NCBI GenBank assembly: GCA_902600225.1
Contig: CACKIH010000004.1
Location: 24,857 to 88,856, forward strand
Source: an uncultured Alphaproteobacteria bacterium
Lineage (GTDB): Bacteria; Pseudomonadota; Alphaproteobacteria; HIMB59; GCA-002718135
Direction: 5' to 3'
Length of the DNA: 64,000 nucleotides
Part shown: one piece after another, positions 58,264 to 61,902 of the stretch
Numbering within the stretch: position 1 is the first letter of the stretch
Layout: every line of letters begins with the position of its first letter
Position numbers and translations under genes: made by a program
The notes under the pieces: generated by a model
What the model was told of the DNA's origin: nothing
The model's input: the letters and a program-made list of their open reading frames with translations, nothing else
The model's database searches: none

Positions 58264-58367
58264 TATTTTGGCAGTATTATTAGTTTTTTTTATATATGCA
58301 AATATTGCATACCAATATTCTCTTAAATATTCTTACTAAAATTCAATAATAAACTAATTCATCATCA

Positions 58368-58417
58368 CGTTCATCACTCTTTTAGGGTGACGGAAGTAGA
58401 CGAAAGTCGAAGGAACG
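58368..58417 (+). ncRNA. glnA-type glutamine riboswitch aptamer, copy 1 of the amt-1 tandem
   Basis: CGTTCATCACTCttttaGGGTGACGGAAGTAGACGAAAGTCGAAGGAACG matches the remembered glnA motif consensus (CGUUCA...CGGAAGUAG...CGAAGGAACG); P1 CGTT/AACG, hairpins TCACTC/GGGTGA and GAC/GTC. Confidence 0.88.
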
Positions 58418-58434
58418 CATGCAAAGTTATAAAT

Positions 58435-58484
58435 CGTTCAATTTGCCCTTAGGCAAATCGGAAGTAGGTTAAACCGAAGGAACG
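58435..58484 (+). ncRNA. glnA-type glutamine riboswitch aptamer, copy 2 of the amt-1 tandem
   Basis: CGTTCAATTTGCCcttaGGCAAATCGGAAGTAGGTTAAACCGAAGGAACG; same core with a covarying hairpin. Confidence 0.88.
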
Positions 58485-58577
58485 CGGATCTTAGTAATTA
58501 ATTTCCATAGCTAAGCATGAAAAGTAACACATGACTCAATGTGAGCCATGTACTGTGAAATTTATAATGGAGGATTA

Positions 58578-59864
58578 ATGTTAAAAAAATCTATATATTT
58601 CATTAGCATTATTGCCGTCTTTATGCTCTTTAGTTCATACGCGAGAGCAGAAGTAGACGGTGAAGTGCAATACATTTTAAATACATTCCTATTTCTTGTA
58701 TCTGGGTTCTTAGTCATGTGGATGGCAGCAGGATTTGCAATGCTTGAATCAGGACTTGTAACGTCTAAAAGTGTAGCAACAATAGCTGCAAAAAATATAG
58801 GCTTATATTCTATAGCTGGTTTAATGTTCTGGTTAGTTGGATATAACATGGCATATGGCATTCCTGCAGGTGGCTTTATTGGATCTCCACTTCCTTGGAG
58901 TGATGGTAGTGCTCTAGATACAGGTTATTCAGATGGTTCCGACTGGTTCTTTCAGATGGTATTTTGTGCAACAACTTGCTCAATCGTATCTGGAACACTA
59001 GCTGAAAGAATCAAAATTTGGCCATTTTTTATTTTTTGTGCTTTATTAACTGGTTTCATTTATCCAATCGAAATGGGTTGGCAGTGGGGTGGAGGATACC
59101 TAGCGGAAGCAGGTTTCTCAGATTTTGCTGGCTCAACCCTAGTACATAGTGCAGGAGCAGCAGCAGCACTTGCTGGTGCAATTTTGTTAGGTCCTAGATT
59201 AGGACGTTTTACTGACAGTGGCGAAGCAGCTCCAATGGAGCCTTTTGCAAATTCATCAATTCCTCTTGCAACTTTAGGTGTATTTATTCTATGGCTTGGA
59301 TGGTTCGGATTTAACGGTGGATCACAGTTAGCTATGGGTACATTTGATGATGTAACAGCAGTAGCAACAATATATATTAATACTAACCTGGCAGCTGGTG
59401 CAGGTGTAATGGCTTGTGCTGTTATTTCAAGACTAGTAACGGGTAAAACAGATGTTGTAATGATGCTTAATGGAGCATTAGGCGGTCTTGTAGCAATAAC
59501 TGCAGAACCATTAGCTCCTTCTCCTTTCCTAGCAGTAATCATTGGTGCAATAGGTGGATTAATCGTCTTCTACGGAACAAGACTTTTAATATCTCTTAAA
59601 ATCGATGATGTTGTTGGAGCAATTCCAGTACATGGTTTTGCTGGAATTTTTGGAACATTAGTAGTTCCAATTTCAAACACTGCAGCAAGTTTTGGTGCAC
59701 AACTTTACGGAATTATAGCAATTAACGTTTTCGTTTTTGTTGTATCATTTATTATTTGGTACATCATGAAAATGCTCTTTGGTATTAGAATTAGTGAAGA
59801 AGCTGAAAAACTTGGTACTGATAAATCTGAAGTAGGCGTAATGGCTTACAGCATCAGAGACTAA
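58578..59864 (+). CDS. amt: Ammonium transporter (Amt family), paralog 1
   Basis: RBS GGAGG before ATG 58578; GFLVMWMAAGFAMLESGLV, HSAGAAAALAGAILLGPRLGRF, DDVVGAIPVHGFAGIFGTL. Confidence 0.95.
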   Translation: MLKKSIYFISIIAVFMLFSSYARAEVDGEVQYILNTFLFLVSGFLVMWMAAGFAMLESGLVTSKSVATIAAKNIGLYSIAGLMFWLVGYNMAYGIPAGGFIGSPLPWSDGSALDTGYSDGSDWFFQMVFCATTCSIVSGTLAERIKIWPFFIFCALLTGFIYPIEMGWQWGGGYLAEAGFSDFAGSTLVHSAGAAAALAGAILLGPRLGRFTDSGEAAPMEPFANSSIPLATLGVFILWLGWFGFNGGSQLAMGTFDDVTAVATIYINTNLAAGAGVMACAVISRLVTGKTDVVMMLNGALGGLVAITAEPLAPSPFLAVIIGAIGGLIVFYGTRLLISLKIDDVVGAIPVHGFAGIFGTLVVPISNTAASFGAQLYGIIAINVFVFVVSFIIWYIMKMLFGIRISEEAEKLGTDKSEVGVMAYSIRD

Positions 59865-59868
59865 TGAA

Positions 59869-59934
59869 TTTAGTGATTAGCACATCAACTCCTTATAGTT
59901 GGTCACTAAAAAATGGGAGAGCATCTGCTCTCCC
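59869..59934. other. Two adjacent inverted-repeat structures downstream of amt-1
   Basis: TTTAGTGA...TCACTAAA (59869-76/59903-10) enclosing CAACT/AGTTG; then GGGAGAGC-atct-GCTCTCCC (59915-59934), flanked by A tracts, so a T tract exists only on the minus strand. Confidence 0.7.
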
Positions 59935-59963
59935 AAAAATGCAAATTATTATTGAGATATTTA

Positions 59964-60338
59964 ATGACTGAAACAGAAATAATTAAAGAGAAAAAAAGAA
60001 ACATATATTCTAGCTTCTTTTCAGAAGATTATGTCTCCAAATTTTTATTTAAATCAATTTTGCACCATGTTATCTCTCTTGAAATATATGAAAATAATAA
60101 ATTGAACGGAATTTCATTTGAAACAATTTGCGCAAATATACCTAAGTCAATTGGATCTAGATCATCTATTCAATCTATTTTAAACGAAGCTTTAGAAAAA
60201 AATATTTTTGTTAAAGAACAAAGTAAGTCAGACAAACGAATTAAAAATTATTATTTAAGCAATAATTTTCTCGATATGATTAATACATGGTTAAGAAAAG
60301 AAGGTTCATTTTTTAGTAAAATGAGTTTAGAAAATTAA
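59964..60338 (+). CDS. Uncharacterised protein, possibly winged-helix DNA-binding
   Basis: ORF track starts inside the 59915-59934 hairpin; ATG 59964 (MTETEIIKEKKRN...) more plausible. PKSIGSRSSIQSILNEALEKNIFVKEQSKSDKRIKNYYLS resembles a MarR-like recognition helix/wing. Confidence 0.55.
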   Translation: MTETEIIKEKKRNIYSSFFSEDYVSKFLFKSILHHVISLEIYENNKLNGISFETICANIPKSIGSRSSIQSILNEALEKNIFVKEQSKSDKRIKNYYLSNNFLDMINTWLRKEGSFFSKMSLEN

Positions 60339-60407
60339 TTAGATTTTATTAATTAAATCTAATACTATATCTTGATAGTTTCCAAATTATAGCTATAACT
60401 CAGTTCA

Positions 60408-60457
60408 CGTTCATCACTCTATTGGAGTGACGGAAGTAGACGATAGTCGAAGGAACG
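60408..60457 (+). ncRNA. glnA-type glutamine riboswitch aptamer, copy 1 of the amt-2 tandem
   Basis: CGTTCATCACTCtattgGAGTGACGGAAGTAGACGATAGTCGAAGGAACG. Confidence 0.88.
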
Positions 60458-60474
60458 CATGCAAAGTTATTAAT

Positions 60475-60523
60475 CGTTCAATTTGCAGTTTGCAAATCGG
60501 AAGTAGGTATACCCGAAGGAACG
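60475..60523 (+). ncRNA. glnA-type glutamine riboswitch aptamer, copy 2 of the amt-2 tandem
   Basis: CGTTCAATTTGCAgttTGCAAATCGGAAGTAGGTATACCCGAAGGAACG. Confidence 0.86.
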
Positions 60524-60615
60524 CGGATCTTAGTAATTAATTTCCATAGCTACGCATGATTTAATGCATAACTAAAGGGTAGTTATGTGTTCATAATTTT
60601 ATATGGAGTTCAATA

Positions 60616-61902
60616 ATGTATAAAAAATTTTTTAGTCTTTTTACAATATTCTCTTTTATTTTGTTGCTAAGTTCATCTGTGAGAGCAGAGGTTGACGCTG
60701 AAGTAGCATATATATTTAATACATTTTCATTTCTAGTTTGTGGATTTTTAGTCATGTGGATGGCTGCTGGTTTTCTATTTTTAGAATCAGGTCTTGTTAC
60801 AACCAGAAGTGTATCAACTATTGCTGCTAAAAATATTGGAAAGTTCGCAATAGTTTCAATTGTTTTCTATTTAATAGGATATAATCTTGGATATTCTGTC
60901 CCTGAAGGGGGTTATGTTGGAACACCATCAATATGGACTGATAATACATCTATGGAAACAGGTTATTCAGATGCTTCAGACTGGTTTTTTCAAGCTTTAT
61001 TTGTTTGTGCAACTGTTTCAATTGTATCAGGTGCAGTCGCAGAGCGAATAAAAATTTGGCCTTTCTTTACTTTTGCAGCAGTTCTTGGAGGAGTGATTTA
61101 TCCAATTCAAATGGGTTGGGAATGGGGCGGAGGTTGGTTAGACGCCCTTGGATTTGCAGATTTTGCAGGCTCGACATTAGTTCATGCTTGTGGTGGTTCA
61201 GCTGCTTTAGCTGGCGTAATTCTTTTAGGTCCAAGACTTGGGAGATTTAGCGCAAGTGGTGAACCAGCTAATATGGCCCCATTTGCTCCATCATCAATTC
61301 CATTAGTTACTCTAGGTACATTTATTTTATGGATGGGTTGGTATGGTTTTAATGGCGGGTCACAACTTGCATTAGGTTCTTATGAAGATGCAACAGCAAT
61401 GTCAAAAATTTTCATGAACACTCAACTTGCAGCTTGCGGTGGATGTATGGCTGGCGCAGCAATAACAAGATTGATTGGTGGTAAAACTGATATTGTTATG
61501 ATGCTAAATGGAGCTCTTGCTGGCCTAGTTTCAATAACTGCTGAGCCATTAATGCCTAATCCATTGCTTGCAATTGGAATTGGAGCAGTTGGAGGAATTA
61601 TAATGTATTACGGAACTAACTTCTTAAATTCATTAAAGTTAGACGATGTTGTTGGTGCAATACCTGTACATATGTTTGCTGGAATTTGGGGAACATTAGT
61701 CGTACCTTTAACTAATCCTGATGCATCATATGCAATTCAGTTATTAGGTGTTGCATCAGTATGTATCTTTGTTTTTGTTTTCTCTTATATTGTAATATAT
61801 TTAATTAAAAATATTATGGGATTAAGAATTAGTGAAGAAGCTGAAAAACTTGGAACTGATAAGGCTGAGGTAGGAGTTGTAGCTTATTCAATAAGAGATT
61901 AA
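60616..61902 (+). CDS. amt: Ammonium transporter (Amt family), paralog 2
   Basis: GFLVMWMAAGFLFLESGLV, GGVIYPIQMGWEWGGGWL, HACGGSAALAGVILLGPRLGRF, DDVVGAIPVHMFAGIWGTL. Confidence 0.95.
   Translation: MYKKFFSLFTIFSFILLLSSSVRAEVDAEVAYIFNTFSFLVCGFLVMWMAAGFLFLESGLVTTRSVSTIAAKNIGKFAIVSIVFYLIGYNLGYSVPEGGYVGTPSIWTDNTSMETGYSDASDWFFQALFVCATVSIVSGAVAERIKIWPFFTFAAVLGGVIYPIQMGWEWGGGWLDALGFADFAGSTLVHACGGSAALAGVILLGPRLGRFSASGEPANMAPFAPSSIPLVTLGTFILWMGWYGFNGGSQLALGSYEDATAMSKIFMNTQLAACGGCMAGAAITRLIGGKTDIVMMLNGALAGLVSITAEPLMPNPLLAIGIGAVGGIIMYYGTNFLNSLKLDDVVGAIPVHMFAGIWGTLVVPLTNPDASYAIQLLGVASVCIFVFVFSYIVIYLIKNIMGLRISEEAEKLGTDKAEVGVVAYSIRD

Follow-up and report, generated by a model that had tools for sequence, protein, structure and literature searches.

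The window, that is the whole 64,000-nt stretch analysed here, carries two neighbouring ammonium transporter genes, amt1 and amt2, each preceded by two glutamine aptamers in a row. Does each pair consist of two switches in series or of a single device, and why are the two leaders so alike when the proteins behind them have diverged? Tandem glutamine riboswitches, including those before amt, are already known: amt and glnA are known targets in marine sequences, and tandem glnA RNAs and the ammonium-transporter link were noted in 2010 by Weinberg and others (PMC2864571). The window comes from a draft genome (1.25 Mb, 75% complete) whose family consists of small marine Alphaproteobacteria; many genomes in it are labelled as ocean single-cell genomes.

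Both genes belong to the Amt family (PF00909, E about 1e-96 to 1e-98) and are the only two Amt matches in the window's genome. The amt2 tandem sits in the 5' leader of this nitrogen-metabolism gene, whose ATG start codon (60616) lies 88 nt 3' of aptamer 2. The aptamers and genes are as follows.

58366-58421, + strand: aptamer 1 of the amt1 leader (RF01739, 61.4 bits)
58433-58488, + strand: aptamer 2 of the amt1 leader (RF01739, 59.6 bits)
58578-59864, + strand: amt1, ammonium transporter (PF00909, E 1e-97)
60406-60461, + strand: aptamer 1 of the amt2 leader (RF01739, 61.3 bits, E 4e-11)
60473-60527, + strand: aptamer 2 of the amt2 leader (RF01739, 55.4 bits, E 2e-9)
60616-61902, + strand: amt2, ammonium transporter (PF00909, E 4e-96)

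All four aptamers match the type-1 glutamine riboswitch model (RF01739, an Rfam covariance model of 53 positions with a gathering score of 35) over its full length and above the gathering score (55.4-61.4 bits). The preliminary description had assigned to amt2 a two-aptamer glutamine leader like that of amt1, and the RF01739 doublet before each gene bears this out. The stems that it quoted (TCACTC/GGGTGA against TCACTC/GAGTGA and ATTTGCC/GGCAAAT against ATTTGCA/TGCAAAT) are present, and the core CGGAAGTAG...CGAAGGAACG is indeed unbroken in all four copies. Both aptamers of the tandem retain the core residues, and the amt1 and amt2 copies presumably bind glutamine. The amt2 leader folds only modestly more stably than its shuffles do (z -1.6). 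Between the two genes lies an ORF (59964-60338, 124 aa) with no Pfam match, which resembles a winged-helix regulator by eye only, and 3' of amt1 there is a GC-rich hairpin of nine pairs (59914-59935) that is terminator-like on the minus strand only.

Across 27 related leaders, the proposed structure has 95.4% of cells paired, and pairing falls to 27-38% when the partners are slid. Changes on both sides occur at 16 pairs, as against 7.5 in shuffles, and none of 500 shuffles was as high. This signal is carried by the aptamer stems P2 and P3 and by a hairpin P4, P1 being invariant; the covariation among homologs that had been proposed as a check is thus found in the aptamer helices. Between amt1 and amt2 the leader core is 92.2% identical, whereas the coding sequences agree at 67.2% of positions (47.7% at third positions) and the proteins at 65.2%, in agreement with the earlier remark that near-identical leaders precede diverged proteins. 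Coding identity as high as that of the leader had been named as the sign of a simple recent duplication. The coding sequences are far less similar than the leader, which rules out a recent duplication of leader plus gene. Outside the core the two are dissimilar, with 43% identity in the upstream DNA and 61% in the platform that follows, so the constraint on the leader has sharp limits. Taken together, the pairing and covariation of the structure and the contrast between core and coding sequence indicate that the leader RNA is under strong constraint.

The pair had been read simply as two aptamers in a row. The aptamers stand, but that reading missed a conserved linker, a matching element 3' of aptamer 2, a further tandem, the genome's third, and a family-wide regulon. 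For the spacing, Infernal matches from 22 relatives and the window's genome were taken without choosing on spacing. Tandems make up 58 of the 65 leaders (amt 28, glnA 19, CP-ATP-grasp 11), and the aptamer-to-aptamer spacer is 11-12 nt in all 58. The linker, CATGC-(1-3 nt)-AGTTAT, hardly varies between the leaders of amt, glnA and CP-ATP-grasp genes, and a conserved ATA[GA]CT-(2-3 nt)-GCATG, located 20-30 nt 3' of aptamer 2, is complementary to it. The helix that the two would form is called P0 here.

58418-58430, + strand: P0 5' strand of amt1, CATGC, AA, AGTTAT (11 bp with 58507-58519, dG -11.6)
58507-58519, + strand: P0 3' strand of amt1, ATAGCT, AA, GCATG (complementary to 58418-58430)
60458-60470, + strand: P0 5' strand of amt2, CATGC (60458-60462), AA, AGTTAT (60465-60470) (near-invariant in 58 tandems)
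60546-60558, + strand: P0 3' strand of amt2, ATAGCT (60546-60551), AC, GCATG (60554-60558) (115 modules)

In every class P0 comprises 11 bp at about -11 kcal/mol, with z of -3.5 to -4.1 against shuffled linkers (-3.6 for the amt2 duplex), and RNAalifold returns it unprompted in all five tandem classes (amt1, amt2, amtA, glnA and ATP-grasp). Counted on anchored sequences, P0 can be recognised in every one of the 115 distinct modules, and each of its pairs is kept in 94.8-100% of them; the changes seen are G.U/A-U exchanges, two mismatches and some fraying of the inner end. The internal loop changes size on both sides together, being 2:2 in amt leaders, 3:3 in those of glnA and 1:2 in those of ATP-grasp. 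Neither the linker nor the 3' element is present in single-aptamer amtB leaders, and in tandems from phage contigs and SAR86 the linker duplex has a z of about 0.1. By energy, P0 is the minority fold in glnA leaders (mean 0.24). The pairs hardly vary, and there is no true compensatory substitution among amt leaders or the 115 modules. Nor could such changes be gathered across the class, because RF01739 occurs in only six of 385 genomes spread over it: the window's own, one congener and four of another family (f10). Complementarity, conservation and matched loop sizes, rather than strict covariation, give good evidence at the sequence level for a predicted P0, which would form in the cell; its conservation could also have another cause.

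Beyond aptamer 2, the amt2 leader holds the following elements.

60525-60545, + strand: weak hairpin P5, GGA...TCC, between aptamer 2 and the P0 3' strand (RNAalifold and single-sequence fold; GGA/TCC invariant in the amt set)
60541-60548, + strand: candidate anti-Shine-Dalgarno (anti-SD) TTTCCATA (7 pairs with TATGGAG; 3-nt overlap with the P0 3' strand)
60566-60588, + strand: hairpin P4, GCATAACTA...TAGTTATGT, between P0 and the ribosome-binding site (4 of 9 pairs changed on both sides; 90.5% of cells paired)
60602-60608, + strand: Shine-Dalgarno (SD) region TATGGAG of amt2, just 5' of the ATG at 60616 (conserved in amt leaders)

Of the candidate anti-SD pairs, only the last is ever missing, in two of the 27 amt leaders, and no covariation is seen among them in this set. 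The duplex lies at -6.7 to -9.0 in amt leaders, whereas shuffles give about -2 to -3. No match beyond the null was obtained in CP-ATP-grasp leaders or in the glnA leaders of this genus, so the anti-SD is not a common platform, and a universal one was rejected in favour of one that holds in amt leaders only. Transcription termination was also rejected, as no terminator-like site is predicted on the + strand in the amt1 or the amt2 leader. This makes translational control likelier, and control of amt is probably translational according to these predictions.

Within the order, RF01739 matches were found in one family (106 of 162 genomes), with none among the sister-family genomes listed. The third tandem of the window's genome (locus L089, contig C9:12756-12877, - strand) precedes a circularly permuted ATP-grasp gene (PF14403/PF04174). 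In family f10 this gene has one aptamer before it at the 3 loci checked; it is not described as a glutamine-riboswitch target in the literature searched. The tandem arrangement before amt, glnA and CP-ATP-grasp genes is a family-wide regulon. The sole glutamine-synthetase match in the window's genome is another paralog and has no switch; the switch-bearing glnA known from relatives probably lies in the missing part of the genome. Three further loci, two of them labelled SAR116, have the tandem and P0 layout before amt genes with clearly diverged Amt. Other arrangements occur elsewhere. In SAR86 (L099 and L154), three aptamers in a row, joined by one linker of 7 nt and one of 24 nt that can itself fold into a hairpin, precede genes for an outer-membrane-like protein and Amt. 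On viral contigs (L210-L307), tandem aptamers with 7-11 nt linkers and no P0 abut a short SD-holding hairpin of small phage genes (CACC...GGGTG, CATC...GATG). At L201:3784-3862, divergent tandem aptamers are followed by a hairpin and T run, resembling an intrinsic terminator, before a 54-aa ORF.

The pair looks like a single device because its conserved spacer can pair with sequence after aptamer 2. We lean, with modest confidence, towards the tandem type-1 glutamine riboswitch being one composite device that controls translation of amt2 and, in the sister copy, of amt1. This reading builds on the aptamers, the gene, the fixed spacing and the conserved and complementary linker and 3' element as observed. 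P0 would enclose aptamer 2 and abut P1 of aptamer 1, and the device would have a single platform, located at the ribosome-binding site. P0 begins at 60458, which corresponds to C60 in the solved aptamer (numbering from the construct in PMC5393176). According to a review that covers the bound crystal structure, glutamine makes G23 enter P1, pairing with C60 just after P1 (PMC11477058). As C60 of aptamer 1 is the first P0 base, binding by aptamer 1 and P0 would meet at one nucleotide. At low glutamine, P0 would form, the TTTCC of the anti-SD would be held in P0/P5, the SD would be free and Amt would be made. At high glutamine, aptamer 1 may take its tail C, the start of P0, for the G23-C60 pair and weaken P0, and the freed element would cover the SD and lower Amt. 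From what is generally known of nitrogen control, less ammonium uptake and less glutamine synthetase would be expected at high glutamine. On such physiological grounds an OFF switch is favoured for amt.

Glutamine might instead turn the gene on, by stabilising aptamer 2, P5 and P0 so that the anti-SD would be sequestered and more Amt or glutamine synthetase made. In cyanobacteria, the type-1 switch that has been characterised is turned on by glutamine, as is type-2 (PMC6316151), and forcing P1 in folding raises SD access from 0.50 to 0.77 in amt1 and from 0.42 to 0.86 in amtA, which, if anything, would speak for this direction. However, amt2 is unchanged (0.48 to 0.50), the single-aptamer amtB leaders are reversed (0.34 to 0.16), and for ammonium uptake and glutamine synthetase alike an ON response would be unexpected physiologically. 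Thermodynamic folding was rejected as a test of direction, since SD access moves differently between gene classes, and we consider an ON switch rather unlikely. Whatever its direction, the tandem could also consist of two independent switches in series, each with its own platform. A 2022 review files 157 doublets and 4 triplets in this way, as pseudo-cooperative, that is, as complete switches in series (PMC9481103), and the core residues kept in both aptamers would suit such a pair. That filing misfits the present group, because no platform can fit behind aptamer 1 in a spacer of this length. This spacer holds no terminator, SD or second start, is conserved like the aptamer core and can pair with the downstream element, and two independent switches are therefore improbable. 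By its spacing and single pre-gene region, the tandem corresponds to two aptamers with one platform, as in glycine riboswitches, the platform being predicted.

The likeness of the two leaders could, for its part, stem from gene conversion between the neighbouring copies rather than from selection on each, both of which had been offered in the preliminary description. Conversion does occur at times. In the relative L193 (543-749 and 2581-2783), one of 16 genomes, the cores of amt1 and amt2 show 99.3% identity, which extends to the variable loops and ends after GCATG, the platforms beyond being 62% identical; the pattern is clearly that of a gene conversion confined to the riboswitch. It leaves the likeness in the window unexplained. 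With gaps counted, the window's cores (0.896 identical) are less alike than amt1 and the amt2 of other genomes (0.913), and over ten genomes same-genome cores show no excess, being 0.907 identical as against 0.906 when paired at random across genomes (P=0.21). The amt2 leaders also cluster as one group in the leader tree, with modest support (74% of bootstrap trees). Conversion as the source of the likeness is thus most improbable in this genome, but it did act in L193, and selection on the RNA is supported by these sequence comparisons.

Cooperative dual-aptamer riboswitches are rare, and the review places only glycine and guanidine-II riboswitches in that category. Tentatively, the tandems described here might represent a further, truly cooperative class in marine Alphaproteobacteria, with P0 and C60 coupling both sites and with amt, glnA and CP-ATP-grasp genes as its regulon; the amt tandems would then be cooperative. 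If true, dozens of glutamine tandems sharing a conserved, pairing linker would extend that list by one class, C60 in both the ligand site and the coupling helix would give a clear test of site coupling, and streamlined ocean bacteria would run ammonium uptake and glutamine synthesis through RNA. No account of P0 was found in the literature searched, which did not extend to the primary glutamine-aptamer papers, and its novelty is provisional.

Among known systems, the Downstream-peptide (type-2) glutamine riboswitch has the same ligand and a similar core, but its genes encode peptides of 17-100 aa, whereas large transporters are found here, and none of the Downstream-peptide families in Rfam reaches threshold within the window. 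Compared with RF01739, both aptamers fit the model from end to end, with CGGAAGTA, GAAGGAACG and the tail C all retained, and stand before amt and glnA; the conserved linker and P0 around aptamer 2 fall outside the 53-position model. The tandems of PMC9481103 are likewise doublets or triplets of one aptamer type before a single gene; here, however, aptamer 1 has no separate platform after it, and the linker is conserved and pairs downstream. The tandem glycine riboswitch shares two like aptamers, a short conserved linker and a single expression platform, while its ligand and fold are different, and coupling here is predicted to run through a long helix around aptamer 2.
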